From Bacillota bacterium (GTDB lineage: Bacteria; Bacillota; SHA-98; Ch115): a stretch of 39,078 nt of DNA. The notes under the pieces are model-generated. The model was not told where the DNA came from. It searched no databases and was given only the letters and a program-made list of their open reading frames with translations. The position numbers and the translations under genes were made by a program. Of this stretch, positions 5,921 through 31,689 are shown piece after piece; the stretch's first letter is position 1, and each line of letters begins with the position of its first letter. Location: NCBI GenBank assembly GCA_012842565.1, contig DUSO01000186.1, positions 1 to 39,078 of the forward strand, given 5' to 3'.

Positions 5921-5949
5921 TACCCTCCGTTCATAGCGGTTCGTGGACC

Positions 5950-7648: not shown

Positions 7649-7665
7649 ACAAAGACTACGTTGAC

Positions 7666-8367: not shown

Positions 8368-8368
8368 A

Positions 8369-10566: not shown

Positions 10567-10572
10567 TTTTTC

Positions 10573-11067: not shown

Positions 11068-11078
11068 CATGCCCGGCC

Positions 11079-11882: not shown

Positions 11883-11883
11883 C

Positions 11884-12684
11884 TCATATCTCCTCTTTCA
11901 TGGCCACCCTGGCTTCATCGCGCAGGAGCCCCCATACTTCGTCGCAAAACTTGAGAAATGAGTCCTCTGAAAGGAGGCCTTCTTCCCTGGGTCGGCCGAA
12001 ATCCACGTCGATGATCTCTCTCAGCCTTCCCGGCCTCCGGGAGAGCACCACTATGCGATCTGCTAAGAATGCCGCCTCCTGGATATTGTGGGTAACATAT
12101 ATCACCGTCTTCTCAGTCTTTTCCCAGATCCTCAAGAATTCCACCTGCATTATGGACCTGGTCTGGGCATCCAGGGCCGAAAGGGGCTCATCCATCAACA
12201 GGACATGCGGGTTCACGGAAAGGGCCCGGGCTATCCCGACCCTCTGCTTCATTCCCCCCGAGAGTTCTGCAGGATACTTCTCCTCAAATCCCAGGAGGTC
12301 CATCAGCCTTATATATTCCATGGCGATGTCGCGTCTTTCTCCAGGAGGCACCCCCCTGACCTCCAGCCCAAACTCGACGTTTTTGAGCACCGTCCGCCAG
12401 GGGAAAAGCGCAAACTCCTGAAACACTACGCTGGTGAGGGGCCTAACGGCATCGATGCCCCCCTCGAATATGACCCGGCCCGAGGAAGGAGGCACGAGGC
12501 CGGCGATAATGCCGAGAAGCGTCGACTTCCCACAACCGCTCGGGCCGATTATCGCCACAAACTCCCTGTCGTCTACCGTAAATGATATGTCCCTCAGTGC
12601 TTCAACTACCGGGGCGTTACCCCTGCCATTGGCGCCGGGCCTTCTTGTAAAAGTCTTTGAAATACCATCTACAATTACCCGCAA
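11884..12684 (-). CDS. ABC transporter ATP-binding protein (SsuB/TauB/nitrate-type)
   Basis: Walker A GPSGCGKST, signature LSGGMKQRVGIARAL, Walker B HVLLMDEPLSALD; TTG start at 12684. Confidence 0.95.
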   Translation of the reverse strand: MRVIVDGISKTFTRRPGANGRGNAPVVEALRDISFTVDDREFVAIIGPSGCGKSTLLGIIAGLVPPSSGRVIFEGGIDAVRPLTSVVFQEFALFPWRTVLKNVEFGLEVRGVPPGERRDIAMEYIRLMDLLGFEEKYPAELSGGMKQRVGIARALSVNPHVLLMDEPLSALDAQTRSIMQVEFLRIWEKTEKTVIYVTHNIQEAAFLADRIVVLSRRPGRLREIIDVDFGRPREEGLLSEDSFLKFCDEVWGLLRDEARVAMKEEI

Positions 12685-12698
12685 AGTATAAGGCTCCT

Positions 12699-12758
12699 AT
12701 CTCGAAAATGGTCTGTATACATTTCCGCCCTCCGGTGGTGCCTGCCCTGGGCGGTGTG
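12699..12758 (-). repeat. Copy 2 of the ~60-bp dispersed element, between the SBP and ATPase genes
   Basis: Reverse complement aligns with 1501-1560; core cccaggg..ggcaccaccggagg.cggaaatg...ccatttt is shared. Confidence 0.7.
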
Positions 12759-12787
12759 GACGACTTACCGGGAAGGTACAAGCCCCC

Positions 12788-13819
12788 CTATTTCAATTGC
12801 TTTGCCGCCTCTTCCACAAAGCTCATATCGGTGAACTTCTCAAGGGGCACGACGGTCTTGCACAGGCCGTTCTTCACGTACCACTCCTGCTGCGCAATAA
12901 GGTCCGGAAGGTACAGCCTGCCGTCCCTGTCAATATATGATAGGGACCGCTCTATGCTCTTGCGATCCTGCCCGATGTACTTTGCTATTATATCGATTAC
13001 CTCGTCATAGTGGGCACCGCGCGGCTTCGCAAGGCAGGCGTCATAGTAATAATGAAGCGCCTTTATGTATGCCTTCATGAATCTGACGCCAAGCTCACGG
13101 TTGTTGCGCATCTTTTCGGAATAGAACACCCCAACCACCTGATTCGTGAGCTTGTCGCCCACCCAAAAGAGGACCTTGCCCCAGCCTTCTTCCTCAGCCA
13201 CCGCTCCCCACGGCGGCGAGAGGATGACCGCCGGCACCGTGCCCTTTCGCACGGCGTCAATCATTATCGGCATGGTCCGGAGTGGCGTGAGCTCTACATC
13301 CTTGAGGCTCATGCCTTCCTGCTCCAAAAGCTTGCCTATCTGGTAGTGAAAGGTCGAACCCAGGGTGCTCAGGCCTATTTTCTTGCCCTTGAGGTCCTTG
13401 AGCGACCTTATCGTGCCGCTATCGTAGAGGGCCTTGTTAACCACGAGCGCATTGAGCGGATAGCCCGGGCGCTCCATCCCCCGGTCGGCGACCAGGTACA
13501 TCTTGGCTCCACTTGCAACGGAATTATAGAAGGTGGCGGTAATCCCCGTCGCGCCTACGTCCAGGTCACCGCTCGCAACGGCCACCGAAACAGGCGCCGC
13601 CGCAGTGAACCATTCGACTTTGACATCAAGCCCTTCCTCATCGAAATACCCCTTCTCAAGGGCGATGAATATAGGGGCGCTCCCGACCAGCTTGAGAGTG
13701 CCCAGCTTGACTACGGGTTTCGCTGCAAACAGGATGCCGCCTCCGAAAATCAAGAATGAGGCTAAAAGCACGTATAGCCATGGGTTTAGAAAACGTAAGC
13801 TTCTCCGGTATGAACGCAT
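12788..13819 (-). CDS. ABC transporter substrate-binding protein (NMT1/SsuA-like)
   Basis: VVKLGTLKLVGSAPIFIALEKGYFDEEGLDVKVEWFTAAAPVSVAVASGDLDVGATGITATFYNSVASGAKMYLVAD. Confidence 0.92.
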   Translation of the reverse strand: MRSYRRSLRFLNPWLYVLLASFLIFGGGILFAAKPVVKLGTLKLVGSAPIFIALEKGYFDEEGLDVKVEWFTAAAPVSVAVASGDLDVGATGITATFYNSVASGAKMYLVADRGMERPGYPLNALVVNKALYDSGTIRSLKDLKGKKIGLSTLGSTFHYQIGKLLEQEGMSLKDVELTPLRTMPIMIDAVRKGTVPAVILSPPWGAVAEEEGWGKVLFWVGDKLTNQVVGVFYSEKMRNNRELGVRFMKAYIKALHYYYDACLAKPRGAHYDEVIDIIAKYIGQDRKSIERSLSYIDRDGRLYLPDLIAQQEWYVKNGLCKTVVPLEKFTDMSFVEEAAKQLK

Positions 13820-14170: not shown

Positions 14171-15742
14171 TCAGGAGGGTATCTCCAGCGCATCCCCCAC
14201 CTCGATTCTATCGGCGTCGCGTATGCCGTTCAGCTGCACTATGGCCTCTACTGTGACCCCGTACTGCCGGGCGATGAGCCACAGTGTATCGCCCGGGCGC
14301 ACTATATGGATGCGGCGCATCACGGGAGGCGCAACCACCGCTTCCGGCGCCTCCGGCACGGTGACCTCCACAGGCGCCCTGACTACGGCGGGGACCCGCC
14401 TTACCTCTGTCACGAGCACCCATGTCTTGAAGACGATCCTCACATCCACGGTCCTCGGGTCGATGGCCTCTGCAGTCACCTTCACGACGTCCACATCGGC
14501 TATCGCCGACATGCCGAACCGGATTCCGGGGATCAATACCGATGTGAAGAACCTCACCACGCTCTCGGCCGCATATACCGGCTGGCCCGGGAGTGCGGCT
14601 ACATAGAGAACAGTCACCTTCAGGTCGCCCTCAATGATCACCAGGTCATCCTTCACCAGTACCTTAGTTATCCTCGGCCGTGCAGTAGCTTCGATCACGC
14701 GAGATATACTGGGATTCCCTGCCGGTATTGTGACCGTCGTTTTGAATACAGAGCTTTCCTGTCGCTCAGCGACGATCTCCTGCGCCAGGAACTCCCTCGG
14801 GACAAGGATCTTTTCAGGTACCGGCTCAAGCCTGGCGATAAACTCTATTTCGCGCCGGATCACTACGGTGGCGCTCAAGGCCACAATGGCTCGTATCCTG
14901 AGCCTCCTGGGCTCGATTATGTCAACTGAAACATGTTCTACACGCGAGGTGACGACGGCAATCATCCCCGGGTCCACCCCATCAATCACAATGAATCCGG
15001 TAAAGGGTATGTCGCCCTCAACGGCATGGACCGGCTGGTCGGGCAGTGCGCCGACATAGAGTACCGTGGCGCTGACAACGCCCCTCACGATTACCTTATT
15101 AACGATAGCCTCCGCGCTGGTCACCCGGCTTGCAGCGTCTACATGGACTATGGTCCTGGCAGGGGGCTTTTCAGGCGGGATGATGATGTCTCCTTCGACA
15201 ATTGCCTGACCTTGCCCCCTAAGAAGAGCCTCCTCGAGGGCTATCTTCCTCTTGGTTACTGTCGGGACCGGGACGATCTCCCTCGGCACCTCCAGGGCAA
15301 CCTCGACGATCTCCTCACGGATTACGATGACGTGAAACTCGAGGAGCACGCTCGCTTCTACCGTCCTGGGCCCCACAACCCTGTAACTCCCGAATTGAGC
15401 TGTAACGGTAACCTCGGCTACCATTCCCGGCAGGGCGCCGGAGATGTTGACGAATTCTGTAAACGGTACGGACGCCTCAAAAAAGTGAACCGGCTGCGTG
15501 GGCAGGGCTGCCACATAGAGAATATTGAAAGATACCGTGCCTTCGATGATCACCGTGCCGGGTATCATGGTGACCTTGGTGATCACAGGAGACTCCTCTG
15601 CACTCAAGACCGAGGCTATGTCCGGCTTATTCTGCGGCACCGTGAGAGTCGCGGTTACGACAGCGCTGGACCTCACATCCGCCACGACATATTGAACCTT
15701 CACGCGCCTTCGCCGGAAATCAGATACCACAATGTCAGACAC
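14171..15742 (-). CDS. Multi-domain SPOCS (DUF3794) protein with C-terminal LysM (SipL/SpoVID-like architecture)
   Basis: Three repeats of the pattern '...VIIEG.V...LYVAALP.QPVH..E....F..F..I.G..PGM...V...VE..S......' plus C-terminal RIHIVRPGDTLWLIARQYGVTVEAIVQLNGIRDADRIEVGDALEIPS (LysM). Confidence 0.9.
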   Translation of the reverse strand: MSDIVVSDFRRRRVKVQYVVADVRSSAVVTATLTVPQNKPDIASVLSAEESPVITKVTMIPGTVIIEGTVSFNILYVAALPTQPVHFFEASVPFTEFVNISGALPGMVAEVTVTAQFGSYRVVGPRTVEASVLLEFHVIVIREEIVEVALEVPREIVPVPTVTKRKIALEEALLRGQGQAIVEGDIIIPPEKPPARTIVHVDAASRVTSAEAIVNKVIVRGVVSATVLYVGALPDQPVHAVEGDIPFTGFIVIDGVDPGMIAVVTSRVEHVSVDIIEPRRLRIRAIVALSATVVIRREIEFIARLEPVPEKILVPREFLAQEIVAERQESSVFKTTVTIPAGNPSISRVIEATARPRITKVLVKDDLVIIEGDLKVTVLYVAALPGQPVYAAESVVRFFTSVLIPGIRFGMSAIADVDVVKVTAEAIDPRTVDVRIVFKTWVLVTEVRRVPAVVRAPVEVTVPEAPEAVVAPPVMRRIHIVRPGDTLWLIARQYGVTVEAIVQLNGIRDADRIEVGDALEIPS

Positions 15743-15801
15743 TTTACTGCCCCCCTCACCCTCAAGCTTCCTCTACGCCATGGAGCGCTATATCCTGTAA
15801 A

Positions 15802-15832
15802 GAAGGGTGTCGACGGCGATACGACACCCTTC
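15802..15832 (-). other. Strong intergenic stem-loop between two SPOCS genes
   Basis: gaagggtgtcg(15802-15812)/cgacacccttc(15822-15832), perfect 11-bp stem, 9-nt loop. Confidence 0.7.
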
Positions 15833-15918
15833 ACCTGCCATTCCTGCCATCCTGCCGGCCGCTCACGGCGGCACCCGGTCCCTCGCGGCGCCTGCTCCCT
15901 CCATCTGCCAGTCCGGTC

Positions 15919-17328
15919 TTACCAGTCCAGCCATCCCTCCGGCGTGCTGACATCGGTGACGACGTGTTTTTGGACTATCTTTGTAACCTTGACAAAGAGG
16001 TCCAGGATCATATCTATAAGAACCTCGTTGGTCCCGCCATATGGCAGCTCTCCTACTGGCACCATCTGAACGTTTACAAAGGAGACGGTGGGGTGCACCT
16101 GGACATCCATGCCGGGTGCCGCACCGGGTATATCAACATACTCGGTAAACTCTATCCGCTCCTCCATGTGGTGTACGGGCTGTGCTGGTTCCGCCGCCAC
16201 ATAGACGATCTGGACGACTATGGTACCCTGCACGATGACCTTATTAGGCAGGGCTTCGACATTTCGAATCTCGACCCTGGTGTCAAAGACGCCGAGTACC
16301 TTCTGCACATTGGGCTTGCCCGCCGGGACCATCATCTGCCGCCGAATGTTGACCTGCCTTAATGCCTCCCCCACGACCTCACTCATCCGCACGAGCCGGG
16401 TTTCCAGCTTGATGGGCACCTTATCGGACCGGACATCGATTACCACCCTCAGCTGCTCGACCTGGGTGACCTTGACAAAGAGCCTCAGGATTATCTCCTG
16501 CAGCAGGGTGGTTGGGCTGGTCATTGTCGCCTGGGCGAATTCGACCGTGGGGAATACCTCCACTGTCATGCCGGGAAGTGCGCCGGGCACATCGATAAAG
16601 CTTAGGAACCGCACAGTCTGGTGCATGTGGTGTACAGGCTGGTCCGGCAAGGCGGCTACGTAGATTATCTGTGTCGTTATGGTACCCTCGACTATTACTT
16701 TGTCAGGAATGACCCTGGTTTCTGTAAATCTGACCTCCCAGCCGACGATGCTGAGGATCTTCTGCATTTCGGGCTTTCCTGCGGGCACCGTTAGCGTCTC
16801 GCGCAGGTTGACCTGGGCGAAATTCTCGCCCATCACGTGTTCGACCTTGGCCAGCTCCTTTACGACCTTGGCCGGGATACTCTTGAACGACACATCCGTT
16901 ACCACATCCAGCTGAACTAGCTGGGCAACCTTGGCGAAGATCTCGAGGATGATCTCGATCTCTATGGTCCTCGGGCCCCTCATAACGGCATTGACAAAAT
17001 CCACCCGCGTCCTGACCAGCACTGTCATGCCCGGCTCCGTGCCCGGCACATCCACAAACTGCATAAAGTTGATTGTCTGGCTGGTATGGTGCACCGGCTG
17101 GTCGGGCAGAGCGGCTACGTAGATTATCTGGGCCGTGGCTGTCCCCTGTACGATGACTTTATTGGGAATTGGGGTCCCGGTGGCCGACACGGTCACATTT
17201 ACGACGCTCAATATCTTCTGAATGTCCGGTTTTTCTGCGGGTATGTCCGCAACTGACCGCAGAACGGCCCTGGTCCTGTTTTCGCCGACGACCTCGTAGA
17301 GTTTGAGCCGTTCCTTCTTCAACACCAT
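15919..17328 (-). CDS. Triple-SPOCS (DUF3794) protein without LysM
   Basis: Three repeats: NKVIVQGTATAQIIYVAALPDQPVHHTSQTINFMQFVDVPGTEPGM, DKVIVEGTITTQIIYVAALPDQPVHHMHQTVRFLSFIDVPGALPGM, NKVIVQGTIVVQIVYVAAEPAQPVHHMEERIEFTEYVDIPGAAPGM; ends ...VSTPEGWLDW*. Confidence 0.9.
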   Translation of the reverse strand: MVLKKERLKLYEVVGENRTRAVLRSVADIPAEKPDIQKILSVVNVTVSATGTPIPNKVIVQGTATAQIIYVAALPDQPVHHTSQTINFMQFVDVPGTEPGMTVLVRTRVDFVNAVMRGPRTIEIEIILEIFAKVAQLVQLDVVTDVSFKSIPAKVVKELAKVEHVMGENFAQVNLRETLTVPAGKPEMQKILSIVGWEVRFTETRVIPDKVIVEGTITTQIIYVAALPDQPVHHMHQTVRFLSFIDVPGALPGMTVEVFPTVEFAQATMTSPTTLLQEIILRLFVKVTQVEQLRVVIDVRSDKVPIKLETRLVRMSEVVGEALRQVNIRRQMMVPAGKPNVQKVLGVFDTRVEIRNVEALPNKVIVQGTIVVQIVYVAAEPAQPVHHMEERIEFTEYVDIPGAAPGMDVQVHPTVSFVNVQMVPVGELPYGGTNEVLIDMILDLFVKVTKIVQKHVVTDVSTPEGWLDW

Positions 17329-17400
17329 TCTCTTGTCTCCCCCCTCGTATGCAAAGAACTGGGTCTTAAAAATGACTGGTCTTGCAGACGTACTTCATTA

Positions 17401-17428
17401 CAATATATGCGGGACACGGGTCGCTGTG
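17401..17428 (-). promoter_or_regulatory. Candidate sigma-K-type promoter upstream of the LysM-less triple-SPOCS gene
   Basis: Minus strand CAC - 16 nt - CATATATTG (sigma-K consensus mAC-N16-CATAnnnTA; final A mismatched). Confidence 0.4.
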
Positions 17429-17433
17429 ACTCG

Positions 17434-17462
17434 AAATGGGAGGCCCGCGAGACCTCCCATTT
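17434..17462 (-). other. Strong intergenic stem-loop between SPOCS genes
   Basis: aaatgggagg(17434-17443)/cctcccattt(17453-17462), perfect 10-bp stem, 9-nt loop. Confidence 0.7.
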
Positions 17463-17555
17463 CACAACGTGCTGGCGGGAATGCTGCCCATCCGTCCGTG
17501 AGTGGCGGGCGGATGTACCATCCTTCTGCCTGTCATCCTTTTGCCGGCGGGTGCA

Positions 17556-19151
17556 TCATCCCTTCGGGGGCGGGCAGACCGGGATCTGTAGCACCTGACC
17601 GACCTGGATCATGTTGGGGTCGGCGATCTTGTTCGCCTGTACTATTGCCTCGACGGTCGTGTTATACTTCCTCGCGAGCGACCACAGTGTGTCGCCCGGT
17701 TGCACAGTCACAAAGGTCATTGTGGGCGTAGGGCACGGTACCTCCGGCGGCGTGACTATTACCACGTCGATCACTATGTTGAGCTGGACCGGCTCTGTGA
17801 CTTTGACCGTCACAGAAACAAGGAGCCTGACCTGGAACGACCGGTCGTCGATGACCTCGAACTCGACGTGCTCCACAAGGGCGCGCACCTCAGCCGTCAT
17901 CTCAGGTTCGGCGCCAGGGATTTCGACATATTGCGTGAACTTGACCTGGTGGTCCATATGGTGGACCGGCTGGTCGCCCTCGGCTGTCTGGGCGACGTAG
18001 AGTGTCTGGAGCCTTATCGTACCCTCGACGATGGCCTTGCCGGCTATGATCCTAGTCTCCTCGACCTTGACGCTCTCATCGATACGAATTATCCTGTCGA
18101 TATTCGGCTTTTCTCGCGGGACCTGGAGGCTCTCTTTGAGCATCACCTGCGCCGTATCCTCACCGACTACATCCTGTACCTTGAGGAGCCGCTTCTCAAC
18201 GTCCACCACAACGGTCTTGGATGTGACATCGGTCACTACTTCCATCTGTTTCGTTGCGGTCACTTTGACAGTGATCTTCACGACCGCATCGATACTGATG
18301 GTCCTTGCGTCAATAAGGTCGTAATCTATGGTCTCCTGCTCGACTGTCACCTGGACGTGCATACCGGAGCGGGCTCCAGGTACCTCGACCACATGCGTAA
18401 ACCTCAGCTTGGCCTCCATGAAGTGCACCGGCAGCCGCGTTACTCCGGAGGTGTCTCCTACTGCAGCCGCATACATGACGTTGACATCCACAGCACCTTC
18501 CACGACAACCTGGTCATCGAGAATCTGCACGTCTGTCAACCTTGTACGGCCCTCAACTGAGATCACCGACTGGATATCCGGTTTCTCTTCCGGTACCGCT
18601 ACCCTCTCAGTGACAACCACCTGAGAAGCCTGCTCCCCAACGACGTCTTCGACCTTGAGGAGTTCCTTGGTCACCTTGAGGTCTTCGGGCCCTTTTACGT
18701 CAGTTACTACTTCAAGCTGCTCGGTCTTGGTCACCTTGGCAAAAGCGCGGACCAGCACCTCGACCCGGATGGTGTGCGGGTCGACCAGTTCGTTGGCCAC
18801 ATGCTCCGCCCGCACGTCGATCTGGACGTTCATTCCAGGCTGGGTGCCGGGTATCTCAGCCACCAGCTCGTACGATACCTCCTGCTCCAGCAGCTGGACC
18901 GGCTGGCTTCCGGCGGCGGTGATCCCCACATAGAGCGCGCGAACGTCAACCTTGCCCTCTATGATCACCTTGTCTTTGATGATCTCGTAGGCTGATGTCT
19001 TGAGGGTGGCATCGACGCTCACAACCTTCTCGGCGGTTGGGGCACCGGTGGGAATCTTTATCATTTCGCGGAAGACCTTGCGGACAGTCGTTTCTCCAAC
19101 GACCTGCTCGACCTTGAGCAGCTCTTGCTTGAGCTCAAGACCAACGGCCAT
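17556..19151 (-). CDS. Multi-domain SPOCS (DUF3794) protein with C-terminal LysM (SipL/SpoVID-like architecture)
   Basis: Three SPOCS repeats (DKVIIEGKVDVRALYVGITAAGSQPVQLLEQEVSYELVAEIPGTQPGM, etc.) and C-terminal MTFVTVQPGDTLWSLARKYNTTVEAIVQANKIADPNMIQVGQVLQIPV; best RBS (gggggagagg) precedes ATG at 19151 (ORF extends to 19172). Confidence 0.9.
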   Translation of the reverse strand: MAVGLELKQELLKVEQVVGETTVRKVFREMIKIPTGAPTAEKVVSVDATLKTSAYEIIKDKVIIEGKVDVRALYVGITAAGSQPVQLLEQEVSYELVAEIPGTQPGMNVQIDVRAEHVANELVDPHTIRVEVLVRAFAKVTKTEQLEVVTDVKGPEDLKVTKELLKVEDVVGEQASQVVVTERVAVPEEKPDIQSVISVEGRTRLTDVQILDDQVVVEGAVDVNVMYAAAVGDTSGVTRLPVHFMEAKLRFTHVVEVPGARSGMHVQVTVEQETIDYDLIDARTISIDAVVKITVKVTATKQMEVVTDVTSKTVVVDVEKRLLKVQDVVGEDTAQVMLKESLQVPREKPNIDRIIRIDESVKVEETRIIAGKAIVEGTIRLQTLYVAQTAEGDQPVHHMDHQVKFTQYVEIPGAEPEMTAEVRALVEHVEFEVIDDRSFQVRLLVSVTVKVTEPVQLNIVIDVVIVTPPEVPCPTPTMTFVTVQPGDTLWSLARKYNTTVEAIVQANKIADPNMIQVGQVLQIPVCPPPKG

Positions 19152-19206
19152 CTCCTCTCCCCCTTCCTGCACAAATTAGCAAAAGTAGACAGCCACTTTT
19201 CACTTA

Positions 19207-19234
19207 TACTATATGCGTGGTCTTGCGAAAAGTT
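19207..19234 (-). promoter_or_regulatory. Candidate sigma-K-type promoter upstream of the SPOCS-LysM gene
   Basis: Minus strand AAC - 16 nt - CATATAGTA, matching mAC-N16-CATAnnnTA; located ~55 nt upstream of the ATG. Confidence 0.5.
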
Positions 19235-19253
19235 CATAGGGAATTGGCCCGGT

Positions 19254-20375
19254 TTAGCGGACCAACTCCCGTAGCTCGACCGTACAGCTCCCACGGCTGA
19301 GGACAGTCCGCGAGCCGAGGACGGCACCTTCGAGACAGCATCCGCTGCCCACATCAACCCTCTCGCCTAGGATACACCATGTGAGCCTTGCTCCGTCCCG
19401 TATTTGTACATGGTCAAGGACTATCGAGTTAACGATTCTCGTCTCCCGGCCTACCTCCACGTCATGGCCGATCACAGTCCAGGGTCCCAACCTGGTATAA
19501 GCCCCGATTGAGGCCCGGTCCCCGATCAAGACGGGGCCCCGGAGCTCCACACTCTGATGAATGCTCGAATTCTTACCTATCCTGATCCCCCGCCCAAAGC
19601 GCCTTCCCGGAGGAACTACGTCCAGCCGCATATCGAGAATGTCCCTGTGGGCCTGAATGTACTTGGGCAGGGTGCCAATGTCTTGCCAGTATCCCTCTAT
19701 ACGGTAACCATATATCTTTCTCCCCTCGGCCAGGAAGACAGGGAACAGGTCTCTCTCGAGAGATACTTCGGCCTTGCTCTCTGAGGGATCCCTTTCTCTT
19801 CCGAGCCTCTTTACCTGCTCCGAGATTCTGGAGAGGCCATCGGGCTCTATGATATAGATTCCTGCATTGATCGTATTGCCCTCCACCTCATCCCACCCCG
19901 GCTTTTCCAGGAATCTCACGACCCTCTGCGTACCGTCGGTGAGTATGAGTCCATATGCTGTGGGGTCAGGTACCTCGGCCATTGCAATGGTTATGTCACT
20001 GCCTTTTTCCAGGTGGAATTCCAGCATCTTGCCAAGATCCACATCTGTCAGAACATCCCCGTTTACCACTACCACGCGCTCATTCCCGACAAGAGAGGAG
20101 CACCTCGAGACCGCTCCCCCGGTTCCAAGGGGCCTATCTTCAACCGAATACTCAAAAGACAACCCCCACCTCTTCCCGTTGCCCAGCGCCTCCTTGAACC
20201 TCTCGGCCATATAGTTGAGGCTCAATATCACCTGCTCGATCCCGGATTTTCTCAGGAGGTCGAGCTGGTATTCGAGAAAAGGCCGGTTGGCCAGGGGTAT
20301 TAACCCCTTAGGGCATGTATATGTCAACGGCCGGAGGCGCGTACCCTTACCCCCGGCCAGTATCAGCGCCTTCAC
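19254..20375 (-). CDS. NDP-sugar pyrophosphorylase (mannose-1-P guanylyltransferase / glucose-1-P nucleotidyltransferase family) with left-handed beta-helix C-terminus
   Basis: MKALILAGGKGTRLRPLTYTCPKGLIPLANRPFLEYQLDLLRKSGIEQVILSLNYMAE; hexapeptide-like C-terminus (IGDRASIGAYTRLGPWTVIGHDVEVGRETRIVNSIV). Confidence 0.93.
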   Translation of the reverse strand: MKALILAGGKGTRLRPLTYTCPKGLIPLANRPFLEYQLDLLRKSGIEQVILSLNYMAERFKEALGNGKRWGLSFEYSVEDRPLGTGGAVSRCSSLVGNERVVVVNGDVLTDVDLGKMLEFHLEKGSDITIAMAEVPDPTAYGLILTDGTQRVVRFLEKPGWDEVEGNTINAGIYIIEPDGLSRISEQVKRLGRERDPSESKAEVSLERDLFPVFLAEGRKIYGYRIEGYWQDIGTLPKYIQAHRDILDMRLDVVPPGRRFGRGIRIGKNSSIHQSVELRGPVLIGDRASIGAYTRLGPWTVIGHDVEVGRETRIVNSIVLDHVQIRDGARLTWCILGERVDVGSGCCLEGAVLGSRTVLSRGSCTVELRELVR

Positions 20376-20526
20376 GTATCAACACCCCCCGGCATTCACC
20401 TCCTGTGGGGGTGTCGGACCTTTTAGGCCGGTCCGTACGCCGGCCGGGATACGTCAGCCGGGATACACCGGCCCGGGAGCCTATCCACAGCCAGCCCCCG
20501 GGCTCAACCTGTCCCCCGCCCACCAG

Positions 20527-21486
20527 TCAGGCCGGTCTTACCCTTTCCCTCCAGTAATTGAGGAGGTCCCTTAGAGTATTTTCAAAAGGGATCTCCGGAG
20601 CGTAGCCCGTCCTCTCTGCAAACTTGCTATAATCTCCCAGGAGAATTGGGACATCTGACGGGCGCATACGTCCCGGGTCCTGTTCAATCTTGACAGTCAC
20701 CTTAGAGAGGCCGAGCAGCATGTCAAGGACCTCCGATATCTTGTAGCACTTGCCGCTCGCGATGTTGTAAACCTCGCCTGGTTGACCCTTGTCGAGGCTG
20801 AGCCAGTAAGCTCTCACCATGTCCCGCACGTCCGTAAAATCCCGTCTCGCCTCCAGGTTACCCACGCGGATTACCGGTTCGCGCAAGCCCCATTCGATCT
20901 CGGCGATCTGCCGCGCGAAGTTTGAGGTGACAAATACCTCCCCCCGCCGGGGGCCGGTATGGTTGAATCCCCGGGTCCTTACGATTTCCAGTCCATAACT
21001 ACGAAAGTATTGATAGCCCAGGAAATCCTGCGCTATCTTACTCACCGCATATGGGCTCTGGGGCCTGAGCGGATTCGTCTCCCTTATCGGCACCTCGTCC
21101 TCGTAGACCAGGCCATATTCTTCCGACGAACAGGCAATCTGTATCCTCGGCTTTATGCCCAGCCTGCGAACGGCCTCAAAGACGTTTAATTCGCCAATGA
21201 TATTGTTCATGAGGGTATCATACGGTGAAACCCATGACGACGGCACAAAGCTCTGGGCGGCCAGGTGGAATATGAGGTCCGGCCTTGCCGCCTCTATGGC
21301 CGTCTCAACCGCCGATGCATCAATGAGGTCGCACTCCACAAGATGGAGCTTGCTTCGAATGCCTTCTATATTCTCAGTGCGGCTACGCCACCTGGTGGTG
21401 CCCCATACCTCGACTCCCATGGCGAGGAGGAATTCGGCCAGGTGACTGCCGGCAAACCCCGTTATGCCCGTAACAAGAGCCCTCAT
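20527..21486 (-). CDS. NAD-dependent epimerase/dehydratase, GDP-mannose 4,6-dehydratase/GDP-6-deoxymannose reductase-like
   Basis: MRALVTGITGFAGSHLAEFLLAMGVEVWGTTRW...PDLIFHLAAQSFVPSSW..., SPYAVSKIAQDFLGYQYF (YxxxK present). Confidence 0.9.
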   Translation of the reverse strand: MRALVTGITGFAGSHLAEFLLAMGVEVWGTTRWRSRTENIEGIRSKLHLVECDLIDASAVETAIEAARPDLIFHLAAQSFVPSSWVSPYDTLMNNIIGELNVFEAVRRLGIKPRIQIACSSEEYGLVYEDEVPIRETNPLRPQSPYAVSKIAQDFLGYQYFRSYGLEIVRTRGFNHTGPRRGEVFVTSNFARQIAEIEWGLREPVIRVGNLEARRDFTDVRDMVRAYWLSLDKGQPGEVYNIASGKCYKISEVLDMLLGLSKVTVKIEQDPGRMRPSDVPILLGDYSKFAERTGYAPEIPFENTLRDLLNYWRERVRPA

Positions 21487-22865
21487 TGGGATTCCCTCCC
21501 CATGCGCGCCCTCACCTTGAACCCTTCTCTGATGGTACTCCATATCAGCGGATCCTCCGGCCCAAGGTAGTATAATGCCAGGCCGCCCAGGTGGTATTTG
21601 TGCACCAGGCTAACCTTGGCTCGGACGCTTACGGCATTTTCAAAGAATACGCGGTGTGTGACCCGGCACGAACGGTAGCGGAAGCTCGGTGCAAGAGCCT
21701 CCTCGTCCATGATTACCTCGGGCTTGAAGACACTCAGGAGGGCGGATATCTCTTCATATGAGACAAGCGACGCCTTCGAATCCGGGAGGGGGGCCTCACG
21801 GCGCAATTCCGGCCAATCGTAGCCGTAGGTAGGCACCGTCAGTATCGTCTTCCAGCAAGGCACCCATTGCATATATTTCCTGATTGCTTCCCTAACCCAT
21901 CCGATGGACGCGATAGGGCCGGGCTTTCCTTCTTTATTATGCTGGTCGAATGTCAGAAGGATCACCTGGTCGGCTACACGGCCAACCCCTTCGTAGTACG
22001 CGGCCGGCAACTCGTCCAACCCTTCCACTGGTAGCGCCGCCAGTAGGCTCTTGTCAACCCGGTGGAGGTGACCCGCTATGTTTGAGACAAAGGATAAACC
22101 CCGGTACCAATCCTCAGGGGCTACCGACGTTAAACAGAGCACAATGCCGGAAGCCTTCAGCCTGTTGGCCAGCTCCAGCAGGCCCTTTACGGCTGCTTCT
22201 CTTGCCTTTTTGGAGGACAGAAACGCTCGAACGGCGTCAGCCTCCGGTATGCCGACGTCGGCTATGCTCACTGCGGGCATGACATCTACCTCATGCAGCA
22301 TTGCAAGCGAGACAGCCTTGTCTTGTAAGTGGCTGTGAACGAGGCCCGTAGTATCAATCCCGACCCACATGGGCGAGAGGATCGTAATACTCTTGATGTT
22401 CCTCTCGAGCGAAAGGTATGGTGAGATGGAGCCGTGGTCATGGCGATAAAATGCTATGACCGACCTGATGGGTATTATAAGTCGCTGGGATCTATAGGGC
22501 CTGGATTCTACGGGAAGATGATTGGCCTCGGCGACCAGGGTCACCGGCACCTGGTATTTCTGAGATACCATTGACAGAGTCTCTTTGGGCCCTGTGACGT
22601 GAGTAATTCTGGGAAGGGCAAACTTGCTCAAGAGCGCCGCGAATACCTGCGGGCCCGCAACGCCGTCCTGCCGTAACCCGTGTGCGGCCTGAAATTGCTT
22701 GACCGCGTCCCCTGTCAGATAGCCGAAATAGCCGTCCGGTTCCCCTGCTTCATAACCCAGGAGATTCAGCCTTGCCTGGAGGCAGGCCACATCGTCACCT
22801 TGCATACCCTGACGCAGAATTCGCCTCCCCAGGATACTGCGTTCTGGCTTATTACCTGAGGCCAT
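21483..22865 (-). CDS. Peptidoglycan-binding + LysM + GH18-like (spore-cortex/germination YaaH/YdhD-like) protein with degenerate active site
   Basis: RQGMQGDDVACLQARLNLLGYEAGEPDGYFGYLTGDAVKQFQAAHGL (PG_binding_1), VSQKYQVPVTLVAEANHL (LysM-like), VILLTFDQHNKEGKPGPIASIGWVREAIRKYMQWVPCWKTILTVPTYGYDW (GH18 YaaH-like). ORF extends to 22904; ATG at 22865 overlaps the upstream stop. Confidence 0.8.
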   Translation of the reverse strand: MASGNKPERSILGRRILRQGMQGDDVACLQARLNLLGYEAGEPDGYFGYLTGDAVKQFQAAHGLRQDGVAGPQVFAALLSKFALPRITHVTGPKETLSMVSQKYQVPVTLVAEANHLPVESRPYRSQRLIIPIRSVIAFYRHDHGSISPYLSLERNIKSITILSPMWVGIDTTGLVHSHLQDKAVSLAMLHEVDVMPAVSIADVGIPEADAVRAFLSSKKAREAAVKGLLELANRLKASGIVLCLTSVAPEDWYRGLSFVSNIAGHLHRVDKSLLAALPVEGLDELPAAYYEGVGRVADQVILLTFDQHNKEGKPGPIASIGWVREAIRKYMQWVPCWKTILTVPTYGYDWPELRREAPLPDSKASLVSYEEISALLSVFKPEVIMDEEALAPSFRYRSCRVTHRVFFENAVSVRAKVSLVHKYHLGGLALYYLGPEDPLIWSTIREGFKVRARMGRESQ

Positions 22866-24627
22866 CGGATTCACCATCCATGCAAGAGCTCCCAGAAACT
22901 TCAACGTCGTGGTCTATTCTATTCGAGCCTGGAATTATTGGTGATTGAGCCCTGGGAAGGGTAAACCAGGAGAGAATCGGCCGGACAAGAAGAACCCTCC
23001 TGACAAGACCGAGGATCGCGTTGACCAGCCCTATCCCTACTCGGCGGGGCCCTATCCCTACTCGGGGCGGGGCCGTAGCAGGCCGGGGAGATGCATCAGG
23101 GAGCGTGACTACATCATGTGGTGCGGCCGCATTATATGGGACCACAGCCATTCCAGGCGGCAATGTGGCCCCGCCTGGCGTCGGGGCACTGCCAGGCGCT
23201 GAGACTCCATGGGGCCATGGTGCTTCGGATGACTCCGGAGCTCCGCAGGACGCCGGGGCACCCCCCGATGACAACGTTGCCTCCCGCAGCCGGGTGACCC
23301 CCAGGTCCAGCCTGACAAGGACGGTGGTGTGAAAGCCCGGTATCCCCGGGTCAAATTCCCGGTCCACCGGCACAGGTTCCACGTATACCCAAATATGATG
23401 AGATAGGTGATCAGGCTGGCTGACCTCATAACCACCCTCACGGCCCTCCCCATGGCCGTCCCCATACGGCACGAGTCGTATAAGCCTCTGTTCGCCGGTG
23501 ATCGAGCGTAAAAGCCCGTCTTGAAATGCGCAGTAGATTTCCTGGGAAATACTACCCGAAACAAAGAGACCCCCATGCGTCCGGTGAGCTTCGAATACGC
23601 TGGCTTCAACGTGATGAGTCGTGACAAGCGGCACACCGTACGACTCCAGGTCAACCGGCGGCTGTAGTATGGAGATGGGGACCTCCTGGTGGGTTACGAA
23701 TTCCAGGCTTTTCTCCCACATCAACTCATGCACCAAGAACTTGTCAGAAGGGATGGGGTTGGAGCCACCGGGAGACATGGCACCCTCAGGCGAGACTGTA
23801 AGGTCATATACGGCCTCCCGCCATGGAAGCCCTGCGGTGTACTCACCTGTCAGAGCCCCCCAACTATAGAATGTGCCCTCGGGGTCCGCCTCCAGGGCGC
23901 CCGGAATCACGGCGCGCATCGAGCCCGGCGACATCCCCGGATCCCGCGGCTCTGTCGCCGCCGGCGCAGGAATGGCGGCATAGCAGATGTTCCAGAGATT
24001 TATTATGACCGGGCAGGCAAGGTGCAGGGTAGATACCAGCCTATCATAGTAGAAGGCAGGCTCTCCAAAGTCGACGGTTCCTATAACCACTGTTTGGTGA
24101 ATACCGGCGTTGCCGTCGCTACCCCCACGGCCGCCATCGACACCTGGCCCCCGGAGGGAAACGCCCGTAGGTACGAGATCGCTGAATCGTATCTCTCGTG
24201 TTTCCAACCCGATCGCCCCATCATCCCTCACAGCCTCGACCCTCAGGGTGGCACTATGTTCGATGAACAGCGCCAGGGAAGAAGGCCCTGCCGGAGATAT
24301 TGAGGTCCGGCCGGGAAAGAGCCGGACCGCGGCCACCTCGAGCACGCCATGACCTACCCGCTGGTCCTTATGATGGGTCCCCCGGTCCTCATGACCAGCC
24401 CGCTGGTCCAGATGACGTGGCCACTGGTCCCGATCAAGCGACCATTGGTCTCCATAACTCGGCCGACGATCAAGGCGAAGCGAGGTCTCCCAGACTGCGC
24501 GCCTTTCTATGCGCCATAGGATTCGCGGTAGGGGCAGGACGCGTGCCGGACCTTCACGGTAGCCCGGGCGTTCGCGGCGGCTTAGGCACTCACGGCGGCT
24601 TGGGCCTTCATGGCAGCCTGACATCAA
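22852..24627 (-). CDS. Large repeat/low-complexity protein with a divergent SPOCS-like domain
   Basis: GGLFVSGSISQEIYCAFQDGLLRSITGEQRLIRLVP...VYVEPVPVDREFDPGIPGFHTTVLVRLDLGVTRL resembles a SPOCS module; Gly/Ala/Pro-rich C-terminus; N-terminal heptad-like repeats. True start uncertain. Confidence 0.55.
   Translation of the reverse strand: MMSGCHEGPSRRECLSRRERPGYREGPARVLPLPRILWRIERRAVWETSLRLDRRPSYGDQWSLDRDQWPRHLDQRAGHEDRGTHHKDQRVGHGVLEVAAVRLFPGRTSISPAGPSSLALFIEHSATLRVEAVRDDGAIGLETREIRFSDLVPTGVSLRGPGVDGGRGGSDGNAGIHQTVVIGTVDFGEPAFYYDRLVSTLHLACPVIINLWNICYAAIPAPAATEPRDPGMSPGSMRAVIPGALEADPEGTFYSWGALTGEYTAGLPWREAVYDLTVSPEGAMSPGGSNPIPSDKFLVHELMWEKSLEFVTHQEVPISILQPPVDLESYGVPLVTTHHVEASVFEAHRTHGGLFVSGSISQEIYCAFQDGLLRSITGEQRLIRLVPYGDGHGEGREGGYEVSQPDHLSHHIWVYVEPVPVDREFDPGIPGFHTTVLVRLDLGVTRLREATLSSGGAPASCGAPESSEAPWPHGVSAPGSAPTPGGATLPPGMAVVPYNAAAPHDVVTLPDASPRPATAPPRVGIGPRRVGIGLVNAILGLVRRVLLVRPILSWFTLPRAQSPIIPGSNRIDHDVEVSGSSCMDGESDGLR
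23029..23070. repeat. Two-copy 21-bp tandem repeat
   Basis: ccctatccctactcggcgggg (23029-23049), ccctatccctactcggggcgg (23050-23070). Confidence 0.75.
24357..24482. repeat. Degenerate 21-bp tandem repeat, about six units
   Basis: Units such as cccgctggtccttatgatggg / tcccccggtcctcatgaccag / cccgctggtccagatgacgtg / gccactggtcccgatcaagcg; encodes heptads with a DQ core on the minus strand. Confidence 0.7.
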
Positions 24628-24675
24628 TACCCCCCTGGTACAAATGCTTACGCGTCTACCCCGCCGACCTGCCCA

Positions 24676-25680
24676 CTAACTCAGGATTTTTTCATAGGCC
24701 TTGAGCGTTTCCCTGGCCGCCCTCTCCCATGTGAACTCCTGGAGGACCAGCTCCTGGAGCAAGAGCTCCTTGGGCGATGCATAAGCGGCAAGGACCGCCT
24801 CTCGAATGCTTTTGATATCCCCTGGATCGCAATACCAGGCGTAATTCCCGAAGTATTCGACTGCGGTGCCCCGGTTTGTGGATACGACGTTGCAGCCGGC
24901 GGCCGCGGCTTCGAGGCTGGATAGACCGGGGGTATCATACCAGCTCGGTAGCGCGTGCACCTTGGCCGCAGCATAGGCACTTGCCAGCTTTGCCTGGGGC
25001 ATCTGAGGGAGGAAGACCACATCCCCGGAGGCTATGGCCCGACATGCCTCTAGGTAGAAGGGGTCATTTATGGGGCCTATCAATACCAGCTTGAGCCCTG
25101 TACCGTTCAGGGCCTTGATGAGGGAAAGCTGGTTCTTGCGGGGAGAAATACGCCCGACGCATAGAACCATATCACGGAGCCCGTACTCAGCCTCAAATTG
25201 TCCGGGACCGGCATCCTTAAAGGCCGGGTCAACTCCGTTGGGTACTATATGGTAGCTGGGGCGGATTGCAAAATCCCTGCTGAGGATGTTCATCTCTGCC
25301 CAACCATTGGGCAGGATAATATCAGCCCATCTTAGCACCTCCGATCTAAGCGCGTGATCTTTCCGCCACCACTGTAGTAGCTTCTCGCGCTGAACCGTCT
25401 CCCCGTTTAAGACGTACTCTTCGATATTCCAATAAATTGGCGTGAGGGCTATGGGTTTACCCTGGTCAACGGCGTTCTTACATTGCAAATAAGTTTCTTG
25501 TACGCGGCTTATGTTGAAGAAATGAACCAAATCGAAGGCATCGAGATACGGGCTTAACTCAGTGCAGTGCTCTACCTCGATCCCCAGTGCCCCTAATGCC
25601 CGTATGGTCTCTATGACCTGGACGGTATCGCCTGCTGGGAGCCTAAGCAAATCAGGGCGGCTCTGGACGAGCACGCGCAT
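24676..25680 (-). CDS. GT4-type glycosyltransferase family protein
   Basis: RVLVQSRPDLLRLPAGDTVQVIETIRALGALGIEVEH..., LCVGRISPRKNQLSLIKALNGTGLKLVLIGP, PSWYDTPGLSSLEAAAAGCNVVSTNRGTAVEYFG. Confidence 0.9.
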   Translation of the reverse strand: MRVLVQSRPDLLRLPAGDTVQVIETIRALGALGIEVEHCTELSPYLDAFDLVHFFNISRVQETYLQCKNAVDQGKPIALTPIYWNIEEYVLNGETVQREKLLQWWRKDHALRSEVLRWADIILPNGWAEMNILSRDFAIRPSYHIVPNGVDPAFKDAGPGQFEAEYGLRDMVLCVGRISPRKNQLSLIKALNGTGLKLVLIGPINDPFYLEACRAIASGDVVFLPQMPQAKLASAYAAAKVHALPSWYDTPGLSSLEAAAAGCNVVSTNRGTAVEYFGNYAWYCDPGDIKSIREAVLAAYASPKELLLQELVLQEFTWERAARETLKAYEKILS

Positions 25681-25771
25681 GAGCTACCCCTCCATTCGCA
25701 AGCTGGCGTTCGAGGACCGGGGTTCCCGGTAACGTACTGAAGGTGCCCCTTTAATAAGATGCCCGGGGGGT

Positions 25772-25836
25772 GCTCCTCCCGGCTCTTGCCAGCGCCTTTC
25801 CCCTCGGTGAAGTCGGTCGGTGAAGCCGGGAGGAGC
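25772..25836. repeat. 13-bp perfect inverted repeat between truncated SPOCS gene and glycosyltransferase gene
   Basis: gctcctcccggct (25772-25784) / agccgggaggagc (25824-25836), 39-nt spacer. Confidence 0.7.
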
Positions 25837-25854
25837 TCCTCTTGATCTGTCCTG

Positions 25855-26194
25855 TCACGCGACCACACCTGTGGCTACCCTGATCTGTTCATGCTGGGTG
25901 ACCTTCACGTCTATTCTCACGATCACCTTTTCCATGAAGCTGCCCGTAGTGGGGTCAAACTCCCATACGACGTTCTCTACATACGAATGGTCCTGCTGCT
26001 GCATGCCCTCTACTACGGGCCGATTTGGATTAATCGGCGTAACCTCAACCATCTCGCTAAACGGCAGGAGCTCAGACAAGTGGTGCACCAGGTTGTCAGT
26101 ACCGACGTAGAACACCTGTTTCTGCACCGCCCCCTGCACTATGACCTTACCATTTTTTACAATTGAGGTAACGTCGGTGACGGGAGAAGTTACT
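25855..26194 (-). pseudogene. N-terminally truncated single-SPOCS (DUF3794) protein
   Basis: In-frame RAVTSPVTDVTSIVKNGKVIVQGAVQKQVFYVGTDNLVHHLSELLPFSEMVEVTPINPNRPVVEGMQQQDHSYVENVVWEFDPTTGSFMEKVIVRIDVKVTQHEQIRVATGVVA; the N-terminal half of the SPOCS fold is absent and the only start is an internal GTG at 26139. Confidence 0.6.
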
Positions 26195-26580
26195 GCCCTC
26201 TATTGGCAGCTAATCTCACATCCGGGAGGTTAAGCAACTTGACAAGAGAGGGATCTGAAATAGCCGCGTCTGATCCCCAGATAGTAGGGCGCCAGAGATG
26301 CCATCCTGCCACCCTATCCTCTTCCTGGGGGGACTACGGATAAAAAGATTCTAAAATGCCTGGATACAGTTCGCATCGTCAAGAATTTTTTTCTAACCTT
26401 AAGGAGGATTCTAGCTGATTACAGCGAAAGAGTTAAGTAACCTAACTAACAGGATAGGAACGTATAACGATGAATCACTAGACAGAGTATCGTTTGGTAT
26501 AAGCTTTACGAGGACCACGATGTGGTGACTTTGACTTTAAGTTTCAAAGAGCAATCTATGAAGAGACGAGGGCGAGGGTA

Positions 26581-27768
26581 ATGATTGGTGAGAAGTGGAC
26601 TGGTCTAAGGAATGGGAAATTGGTTACGCCGAAGCGAATTTACGAAGATGGTATACTTGTGATCGCCCCGGATGGCCGTATCGCGGGAATCGGTAATATT
26701 ACCGAAGTGAGGGTCCCTTTGAAAAATGATGTTGAATGGATCGATGTTGAGGGGGGAATAATCGCCCCCGGGTTCATAAACCTGCATGTCCACGGAGTCG
26801 CAGGTAAGTCTTGTTTTGAGACAGACTATGAGTCTATTAATTATGTATCCTGCAATCTAGCTAAAGAAGGGATCACTGCATATTGTGCTGGAATGATCGG
26901 AGATACAACTGAGGTAATGATTGAACGAATCAAGGGAACTCGGTCGGCCATGGAGAGAGGAGTCGAAGGCGCAGAATTGCTAGGTTCTTTCTTGGAGGGT
27001 CCTTACATTTGTGAGCAATATAAGGGAGCCGCTCCGCTTAATCGCATCCGCAAGCCTGACCTCATTGAGTTCGAAAAATTCCTTCAAGTGGGTGCTGGTT
27101 CAGTGAAGATGGTCACCATCGCCCCAGAGTTGGAAGGGGCCTTAGAGGTAATAGCATTCGCGAATAGGAACGGGGTGGTTGTATCTCTCGGTCATTCAGC
27201 CGCGACGTATGATCAGATGTTGGCCGGAATTGAAGCAGGGGGACGCCACTCTACGCATACCTATAATGGCATGCGCGGGCTGCACCATCGGGAGCCAGCT
27301 GTTGTAGGCACTATTATGGCGGATGAGAGGATCACAGGGGAATTGATTGCTGACTGTGTACATGTTCATCCTGCAGCCATGAAGATACTGATCCGCGTTA
27401 AGGGATATGATAGGGTTTGTCTTATTACCGACGGGACCCCTCAATCGGGACTTCCAGATGGAGAGTACATATCCGAATATGGTGCAGAGTTAATCGTGAA
27501 AGATGGAACTGTTAAGCAGAAAGATGGCACGATTGCAGGTAGCGTTACTCCGATGAACCTCGGAGTGAGAAATCTTATCGAAAAGGTTGGTCTTTCCCTT
27601 CCTGAGGCAATATGGATGGCGGCGACCACCCCTGCAGAGGTTCTCGGGCTTTCTCACCGTCTTGGAACCCTTGAGGTAGGAAAGGATGCGAATGTGGTAG
27701 TTCTTGGCGAAGATTTCACCGTTCAGAGGACCATTGTTCACGGTAAGACAGTCTATCAGCGAAAGTAG
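26581..27768 (+). CDS. nagA: N-acetylglucosamine-6-phosphate deacetylase
   Basis: GGIIAPGFINLHVHGVAGKSCFETDYE..., LGSFLEGPYICEQYKGAAP, VSLGHSAATYDQMLAGIEAGGRHSTHTYNGMRGLHHREPAVVG, LITDGTPQSGLPDGEY. Confidence 0.93.
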   Translation: MIGEKWTGLRNGKLVTPKRIYEDGILVIAPDGRIAGIGNITEVRVPLKNDVEWIDVEGGIIAPGFINLHVHGVAGKSCFETDYESINYVSCNLAKEGITAYCAGMIGDTTEVMIERIKGTRSAMERGVEGAELLGSFLEGPYICEQYKGAAPLNRIRKPDLIEFEKFLQVGAGSVKMVTIAPELEGALEVIAFANRNGVVVSLGHSAATYDQMLAGIEAGGRHSTHTYNGMRGLHHREPAVVGTIMADERITGELIADCVHVHPAAMKILIRVKGYDRVCLITDGTPQSGLPDGEYISEYGAELIVKDGTVKQKDGTIAGSVTPMNLGVRNLIEKVGLSLPEAIWMAATTPAEVLGLSHRLGTLEVGKDANVVVLGEDFTVQRTIVHGKTVYQRK

Positions 27769-27810
27769 ATGTATGACATTTATGAGGTCGTATAGAAGGA
27801 GCGGGTGTGA

Positions 27811-28764
27811 GTGTTAACAGGGAAACCGTTCGTAATCGGTGTTGATGGGGGTGCTACCAAGTTAGATATAGCCTTTGGAGATCTCGATGGAGGGCTTCTC
27901 CATCATGCGCGGCTTAAGTCCGGCTACAGCCGTGAAGGTGAAGGATTTTCGTGGAGTGATACAGTTTACGGGGCCCTCTGCCGAACGTTGCATGATCTTG
28001 GAGGAGATATCTCCGATTGTCGTGCCATCTGCTTGGGCCTTGCGGGTCTAAATACCGAAGCCCAGGCAGAGGTGATTAGGGACGAGCTCATGCGAAGGTG
28101 CGCGGTTCCCCAACTGGTCGTTAAGGAGGATTCTGAGATAGCGTACTATGCTGCTACTAAAGGGAGGCCGGGGATTGCTGTCATAGCCGGTACCGGTTCT
28201 GTTGCATATGGTAGAGGATTGAACGGCGATTTTACAAAACTTGGTGGCCATGGACCTTTGGTAGGAGATGAGGGGAGCGGTTATGATATAGGCCGCCGAG
28301 CCGTATCACATGCGATAAAAGCATATGAAAGGCGAGAAGAACCTACATGTTTAATCGAGGATATCCCCAGGGAGTTAGGTCTCAAAGATATGCTTGATGT
28401 ACGAGCGTGGGTGTATCAGGCTCCGAGGAAGTCTAGCGAACTAGCCTCTCTAGTCCCAGTGGTCTATACGGCGGCTAAGAAGGGGGACAAAGTCGCAAAG
28501 GAGTTACTAGAGTTTGCCGGAATCGAACTTGCTAAGTTGGCCTTGGCTACCGCTGATCATTTAGAGTTAGATGAACCTTTAATAGTGGGAATCGGTGGAG
28601 TGATTAGCAATGTCAACTTCGTATTCGAGAGTTTCCGGTCAACGATACTTGCAGCGAGACCTAAGGCCCAAGTGAAGGTTACGGAGGATAAACCAGTATA
28701 TGGTGCACTTTTCCTTGCCCGTCATGCGGCCTCGCAGAAACTATGTGTTGGCCGATCTGTATAA
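27811..28764 (+). CDS. BadF/BadG/BcrA-type ATPase, N-acetylglucosamine kinase-like
   Basis: FVIGVDGGATKLDIAFGDLDG..., GIAVIAGTGSVAYGRGLNGDFTKLGGHGPLVGDEGSGYDIGRRAV. Confidence 0.88.
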   Translation: MLTGKPFVIGVDGGATKLDIAFGDLDGGLLHHARLKSGYSREGEGFSWSDTVYGALCRTLHDLGGDISDCRAICLGLAGLNTEAQAEVIRDELMRRCAVPQLVVKEDSEIAYYAATKGRPGIAVIAGTGSVAYGRGLNGDFTKLGGHGPLVGDEGSGYDIGRRAVSHAIKAYERREEPTCLIEDIPRELGLKDMLDVRAWVYQAPRKSSELASLVPVVYTAAKKGDKVAKELLEFAGIELAKLALATADHLELDEPLIVGIGGVISNVNFVFESFRSTILAARPKAQVKVTEDKPVYGALFLARHAASQKLCVGRSV

Positions 28765-29098
28765 TCGAGGTCGGAAGGACATGGAGAATTGGCTAGAGGT
28801 GAGTGTACGACTTGATGGCCGAATGTCGATACTACTTGAATTCAATCTCAGATCGCTCTCGCTTTAGGAGTCGCCGCAACCCGTCATTGGGGAGGTGAAT
28901 TAGATTCTGTGTAAAGATAAATCTAAGACTGCAGATGACCCGGCTTTAGATACGAATGGGGAGGCGATCCTCGTTCAATTATTGGGTTCCCTGGTTTAGT
29001 ATTTGATCAACGTAGAAACATTGGCGATTCGCCCCTTTCTTGTTGGAATAGCCAACTAGGGGGGAAAGAGTTCGCAAAGAGACTTGGGAGGGAGAAAC

Positions 29099-30172: not shown

Positions 30173-30339
30173 CGCAAATTGACTCAGTCGATGGGCCGGA
30201 GAGGAAAGTTGTAGGGCAATGCTGGCCGGTAAGGTAATCATAACGGCCACCTAACTACCGGAACCTACTCAACGAAAGGATGCAGTAGGGGCAATGATAG
30301 CCGAAAATGTGCGGCGATAACTTGAGAGGAGGATATAGC

Positions 30340-31524: not shown

Positions 31525-31582
31525 CAGCCTATGGCAGGCTATATAGGCTTTGTGATCTTGCCGGCGTCTAAAAAGCCAAGGA

Positions 31583-31669: not shown

Positions 31670-31689
31670 ACAGGAAGTAGACGTCTAAA

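Follow-up and report, generated by a model that had tools for sequence, protein, structure and literature searches.

An expanded SipL-family gene cluster with sugar-polymer genes suggests a lineage-specific outer spore layer in a class of Bacillota

In C. difficile, the spore protein SipL carries three DUF3794 (SPOCS) domains and a LysM domain, and the LysM domain binds SpoIVA (PMC6436350). The sipL gene is sigma-E-dependent (PMC3789822) and lies two locus tags away from yabG (CD3567 and CD3569). In B. subtilis, SpoVID ties the coat to SpoIVA and CotE is found in the outer coat; CotE is counted as a SPOCS protein in the grouping 'SpoVID-CotE-SipL' (PMC10867305). SpoIVA is nearly universal in spore-formers, and how outer layers are built without CotE or SafA is a question in most Clostridia-like groups. 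Here, we describe a 39,078-nucleotide stretch of DNA (the window), contig DUSO01000186.1 (C171) of the Bacillota assembly GCA_012842565.1 (GTDB lineage Bacillota; SHA-98; Ch115), a genome of 2.55 Mb that is 97.8% complete. It holds three tandem multi-SPOCS genes beside sugar-nucleotide and glycosyltransferase (GT) genes. The window is probably the sipL-side end of a spore-envelope cluster that is found throughout its class, a group of uncultured anaerobes, was inherited vertically and arose by expansion of an ancestral yabG–ykwD–sipL locus; it would operate by the mechanism proposed below. The gene set suggests a lineage-specific outer spore layer, made from an expanded SipL family together with sugar-polymer genes. 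All of the protein families are known, while their combination and its history are new; no description of a multi-SPOCS array, or of its link to glycan genes, was found in the literature searched, which did not cover subscription journals.

The SPOCS trio and the canonical SipL

As the initial annotation, made from the DNA letters, had proposed, three adjacent minus-strand genes encode triple-SPOCS proteins. The PF12673 profile gave three matches in each, in agreement with the nine or so modules predicted. SL1 (14171..15742; E 1e-55) and SL2 (17556..19151; E 6.7e-58) end in the expected LysM (7e-15 and 8e-19, respectively), while the Pfam scan of the intervening S3 (15919..17328; E 1.4e-56), which is built on a repeat unit of ~153 residues, returned SipL/SPOCS matches only. 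The open reading frame of SL2 spans 17556-19172, and its start was placed at the conserved ATG, at 19151. Genome-wide, PF12673 matched 15 times, with 10 matches in the window (nine in the trio and one in a broken gene, 26023-26160) and five on another contig, C135; no match was found in any of 14 unrelated control genomes. In all genes of the locus except that at 22852-24627, the identity to the nearest relative at codon position 3 (0.32-0.46) is far below that at positions 1 and 2, and the open reading frames are therefore real coding genes. SL2 is 60-90% identical across 12 relatives, and an alignment search with it reached 11 loci, all in uncultured metagenome-assembled genomes or assemblies (Bacillota/Clostridia). 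A scan of genome contigs with the S3 protein by itself found no relative. The AlphaFold2 model of the three S3 modules has a pLDDT of 89.6, and a single module (16414-16881; ~153 residues) was modeled as six long strands with a pLDDT of 95.8 and a pTM of 0.81. At E <= 0.001, the single module had no structural match among the PDB and viral models, nor did the three-module model in the PDB, and the SPOCS repeat may represent a beta fold to which no solved structure is closely related.

SL1 and SL2 had been annotated as two SipL-like paralogs. Judged by synteny, architecture and tree position, this description needs revision, as SL2 is the canonical SipL orthologue and only SL1 is an additional paralogue. 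Of the genomes sampled from other families of the phylum, most of those that bear SPOCS have few matches, compatible with one protein. The complete order yabG–NAL1-like–ykwD–sipL occurs in nine loci of six other families, and ykwD adjoins the single SipL in 14 of 15 such loci outside the class. The NAL1-like protein (L039 10734-11747; weak PF25608) is encoded between yabG and ykwD/sipL in many families. In a quick tree of the paralogues, whose deep branches are unreliable, SL2 forms a short-branched clade near the single SipLs of other families, and SL1, S3 and two further proteins described below, S4 and S3b, form four more class-wide, fully supported clades (support 100). Within each of the five clades, the hosts group once again by family, order and genus. 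Because the shorter arrangement is the commoner one, the extra genes appear to be additions in the class and not losses elsewhere; the locus would have gained a block between ykwD and sipL, as well as S3 and SL1 after sipL. The order yabG–NAL1-like–ykwD–sipL can serve as a synteny rule to identify the genuine SipL where a genome encodes multiple SPOCS proteins. In genome G059, two tandem triple-SPOCS proteins without a recognised LysM tail directly follow yabG and ykwD (L097 8244-11496), apparently an independent duplication at the same locus.

Like C. difficile SipL (CD3567), SL2 and SL1 combine three DUF3794/SPOCS domains with a LysM, SpoIVA is encoded in the genome, and yabG belongs near sipL; mother-cell control is likewise suggested, here by a sigma-E/K-like promoter sequence. 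While one SipL has been studied in C. difficile, four more SPOCS proteins and a glycan block share the present locus. The combination of SPOCS and LysM is also that of B. subtilis SpoVID, but SL2 reaches 26.9 bits on TIGR02907 (cut-off 169.85), and this in the LysM region only.

Ordinary tandem duplication, with S3, SL1, S4 and S3b as redundant SipL copies and the sugar genes as mere neighbours, would fit the tree, in which all of these are SPOCS proteins that arose by duplication. However, the five paralogues stay separate clades through the class, and their architectures differ (LysM, no LysM, a transmembrane anchor, four modules). Duplication has turned the SipL node into a family whose members carry a LysM anchor, a transmembrane anchor or none. 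Together with the distribution of the sugar genes discussed below, these differences make mere redundancy improbable.

Order and conservation of the cluster

The homologous regions of 15 relatives from the same family, order and class were compared. The order SL2–S3–SL1 is intact in all 15, confirming the neighbourhood conservation that the spore-envelope assignment called for. In most of them, the genes of a nucleotidylyltransferase (NTP), a short-chain dehydrogenase/reductase (SDR), a GH18-like protein (pseudo-GH18), a divergent SPOCS protein, a GT4-type glycosyltransferase, S3b and S4 lie upstream of this trio, and the full order reads yabG–NAL1-like–ykwD–five-GT operon–S4–S3b–GT4–divergent SPOCS–pseudo-GH18–SDR–NTP–SL2–S3–SL1. 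A GT and nucleotide-sugar block thus stands between ykwD and sipL. Beyond S4, the relative G001 has a five-gene operon (GT4, GT2, GT4, GT4, GT4), followed by a YkwD/CAP protein, the NAL1-like protein and the sporulation protease YabG (TIGR02855 E 1e-100); G003 carries the same operon. The clusters of G002 and G003 are split at two places. YabG and YkwD flank the expanded cluster in the class relatives, and S3, SL1, S4, S3b and one divergent SPOCS protein are fixed in the class beyond SL2. The three multi-SPOCS proteins first noticed are therefore real but belong to a larger array of five plus one divergent member, of which the window lacks S4 and the greater part of S3b. Tandems resembling SL2–SL1 also occur in G054, G212 and G282, and pairs resembling S4/S3b in two other families, G035 with GT4 and G040 with GT4 and SDR, indicating that part of the arrangement predates the class. 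In the SPOCS cluster of G054, which is from another family, a gene of the GvpL/GvpF gas-vesicle family (L078 7229-8026; E 2e-55) lies between two SPOCS genes.

S3b is a membrane-anchored triple-SPOCS protein: each of the seven class copies scanned, and the G035 copy too, has a transmembrane segment at its N-terminus. S4 has four SPOCS modules, and both proteins are without LysM. The window carries the last module and the stop codon of S3b (25855..26165, minus strand, within an open reading frame of 25855-26196; PF12673 partial, 5e-9), broken at ~26165 and 88% identical to residues 576-679 of the intact G001 S3b. The 4.3-kb contig C135 holds the 3' end of the last GT, an intact S4 and the 5' part of S3b (L009 2831-4207), with ~107 residues missing between the two pieces. 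The truncated SPOCS gene of the initial annotation is thus genuine, although as the 3' end of S3b and not as a separate gene, and we rejected the idea of a functional short protein. The break may be a rearrangement, a deletion or a mis-assembly. A developmental rearrangement of S3b, like that of spsM in B. subtilis, was considered but set aside, as neither break has a recognisable recombinase beside it and the two flanking sequences show no match to one another. The final 127 bases of C135 recur at the start of C133, which carries unrelated genes. This repeated element (L009 4180-4308; L076 1-127 of C133) abuts the S3b break, and a 60-bp copy (97%) lies on C182 (L077 2853-2912), near an open reading frame reading like Cas1.

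In the tree, S4 and S3b fall together with SPOCS proteins of other families that likewise have no LysM (support 98), a placement that would also suit exosporium-like structural proteins akin to Clostridium CsxC, as opposed to coat morphogens. CsxC belongs to the exosporium of C. sporogenes (PMC4942563), and S4 weakly matches the CsxC family (NF045794; 35 and 41 bits). These scores (e.g. 35.2) are nevertheless far under the family cut-off of 135 bits, and the cysteine-rich composition reported for CsxC is not shared by S4, which lacks cysteine altogether, or by the part of S3b encoded on C135, with its two cysteines. We regard a CsxC-like identity as unlikely.

A candidate sigma-E/K-like promoter of SL2 (ACTTTTCGCAAGACCACGCATATAGTA) is located at 19207..19233 on the minus strand, and the GCATATAGTA element is present upstream of SL2 in all of the relatives whose upstream sequence was inspected. 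The element ending in GCATATAGTA fits the mother-cell sigma-E/K consensus. A stricter fixed pattern matched 11 of the 15 SL2 upstream regions, as compared with 0.01 expected from dinucleotide shuffles; as the pattern was written after the sequences had been viewed, the evidence lies in the cross-species conservation and not in this count. A weak element of the same kind upstream of S3 (AC-N-CATATATTG; 17401..17427, minus strand) was seen in the window only and was not found in the S3 upstream regions of the relatives. The host genome encodes a single SpoIVA (contig C110; TIGR02836 E 8e-228), sigma-E and YabG, and none of 17 class genomes, including the host, has a CotE (PF10628) over the cut-off. 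The assignment as a spore-envelope locus with glycan genes is thus upheld by the yabG synteny, SpoIVA, the sigma-E/K-like promoter and the five-GT operon, although not in the form of an array limited to the trio.

The sugar genes, pseudo-GH18 and the divergent SPOCS protein

The pyrophosphorylase predicted next to SL2 is real: NTP (19254..20375, minus strand) is a sugar-1-phosphate nucleotidylyltransferase resembling mannose-1-phosphate guanylyltransferase, with a hexapeptide domain (PF00483 1e-48). Its best NCBIfam match, NF052502, gave 263.7 bits against a cut-off of 440, and the scores of several subfamilies are equally weak, so that they point to no one substrate. For the SDR (20527..21543, minus strand; epimerase/GDP-mannose-dehydratase superfamily, 8e-84), the superfamily had been named correctly, but the protein is closer to RMD (GDP-6-deoxy-D-lyxo-4-hexulose reductase), its nearest solved relative (2pk3, E 1e-86), than to the dehydratase GMD; on the gmd model TIGR01472 it scored 183 bits, under the cut-off of 415. 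We therefore describe it as an RMD-like nucleotide-sugar reductase/dehydratase. RMD makes GDP-D-rhamnose in Aneurinibacillus. The SDR orthologues within the cluster are 74-75% identical. The annotated GT4 glycosyltransferase (24676..25680, minus strand; PF00534 2.7e-19) was likewise recovered, and its orthologue stands beside S4/S3b in the class and in two other families.

This block could also synthesize glycan for the capsule or S-layer of vegetative cells, with no more than a chance position beside sporulation genes; we give little weight to this reading. In Aneurinibacillus, enzymes of the RMD type take part in S-layer glycan synthesis, the nearest structure to the SDR is an RMD, and the pattern search found no promoter element for GT4, SDR or NTP. 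On the other hand, the block is found between ykwD and sipL; it shares the strand of pseudo-GH18 and SL2, from which short gaps separate it where the genes do not overlap. B. subtilis has a comparable sporulation-specific glycan locus, sps (PMC7439481). The present block resembles sps in combining nucleotide-sugar enzymes with glycosyltransferases. While sps, which is devoted to spore glycan, employs dTDP-rhamnose and CMP-legionaminic acid routes (PMC7439481), this block contains the guanylyltransferase-like NTP and the RMD-like SDR, and its up to six GTs are physically joined to SPOCS scaffold genes.

The sugar genes come and go as a set, judging from the gene content of genus g5. Its genomes keep S4, S3b, pseudo-GH18, SL2, S3 and SL1. 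The GT operon, however, is missing from the interval between ykwD and S4, and the cluster lacks NTP. Across the seven whole g5 genomes, no GT4 relative and no close SDR were found, with one distant SDR match of 32%. The block is therefore separable, and the scaffold does not need the glycan genes. The proposed dedicated glycan enzymes are accordingly linked to the SPOCS genes without being their obligatory partners, and g5 represents a natural experiment, in which the glycan genes are gone and the scaffold genes remain. That g5 keeps the SPOCS genes in the absence of the sugar genes would fit the latter being chance neighbours. However, the other genera retain GT4 and SDR in the block, and GT4, in one case with SDR, is found beside S4/S3b-like genes in two other families.

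Pseudo-GH18 (21483..22904, minus strand) contains PG_binding_1 (1e-18), a LysM-like region and a YaaH/SleL-like GH18 domain (1e-10), and these domains agree with the predicted degenerate GH18 gene, although the LysM match is sub-threshold in Pfam. Its LysM–GH18 architecture resembles that of YaaH/SleL, with 4s3k as the best PDB match (E 1e-24). In contrast to these cortex-lytic enzymes, it has the extra PG_binding_1 domain, and the catalytic DxxDxDxE motif is absent from the window protein and ten relatives. As the catalytic acid motif is lost in all 11 aligned class orthologues, pseudo-GH18 is, by its sequence, a peptidoglycan-binding pseudo-enzyme. The adjacent REP (22852..24627, minus strand) is a low-complexity protein that evolves fast and contains a single, divergent SPOCS-like region. 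REP itself has no Pfam match, but its orthologue in G002 exceeds the SPOCS cut-off (35.9 vs 23.6 bits), and the label of a divergent SPOCS-like protein was a fair one. The REP orthologues are mutually 24-35% identical, and the codon-position identity to the nearest relative (0.48/0.57/0.35) shows a weaker contrast than in the other genes.

A proposed outer spore layer

In the mechanism that we propose, mother-cell sigma factors would switch on the cluster genes. The LysM of SL2 would dock on SpoIVA at the forespore, as in C. difficile, and its SPOCS repeats would recruit the coat. The LysM-less S3 and S4 may form an outer-layer scaffold, with a function comparable to that of CotE, a protein that the class lacks; B. 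subtilis CotE is also a LysM-less SPOCS protein, although PF10628 has no member here. The N-terminal transmembrane helix of S3b could carry an end of the scaffold on a membrane, and SL1 and pseudo-GH18 would be held by SpoIVA or by the peptidoglycan of the cortex. The GT, NTP and SDR products may make a polysaccharide, perhaps with a 6-deoxyhexose, that decorates the outermost layer and is dispensable for the scaffold. The stronger proposal, that the class built an outer layer of its own from duplicated SipL modules, with SpoIVA-bound, soluble and membrane-anchored SPOCS scaffolds replacing CotE under a polysaccharide coat, is possible but tentative, and we would put it at less than even. The cluster provides a named gene set to seek in spore proteomes.

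Several observations weigh against this interpretation. In the host, the break in S3b interrupts the cluster, and yabG lies apart from it on contig C3, together with the NAL1-like gene and ykwD. The sigma pattern, which is post hoc, is clear only for SL2 and, partly, for S4, S3b and the g5 GH18 gene. The genome has no true GMD to feed an RMD. The LysM domains of SL1 and SL2 both keep the aromatic residue of GDTLW, but the probable equivalent of C. difficile I463, mapped from the published text, is Met in SL2 and Arg in the window SL1. As Arg at I463 abolished the SpoIVA pull-down in C. difficile, SL1 may be unable to bind SpoIVA. The replacement of Trp by Tyr or Phe was dropped as a ground for the same conclusion, because W475F SipL works in C. 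difficile.

Two further gene groups lie elsewhere in the window. Positions 4859-13819 contain an organosulfonate/hydroxy-acid-like cluster with sulfolactate-dehydrogenase-like, PrpD-like and RraA/aldolase-like genes, a LeuCD-type hydratase pair and a sulfonate/taurine-type ABC transporter; its proteins are under the subfamily cut-offs, except for the hydratase pair and the RraA-like protein. On the other side, 26581-38986 holds an amino-sugar catabolism cluster with NagA (over the cut-off), a NagK-like kinase, two Gfo/Idh dehydrogenases, a GlmS-isomerase-like SIS protein, a ROK regulator, an IolO-like epimerase and a sugar ABC transporter.

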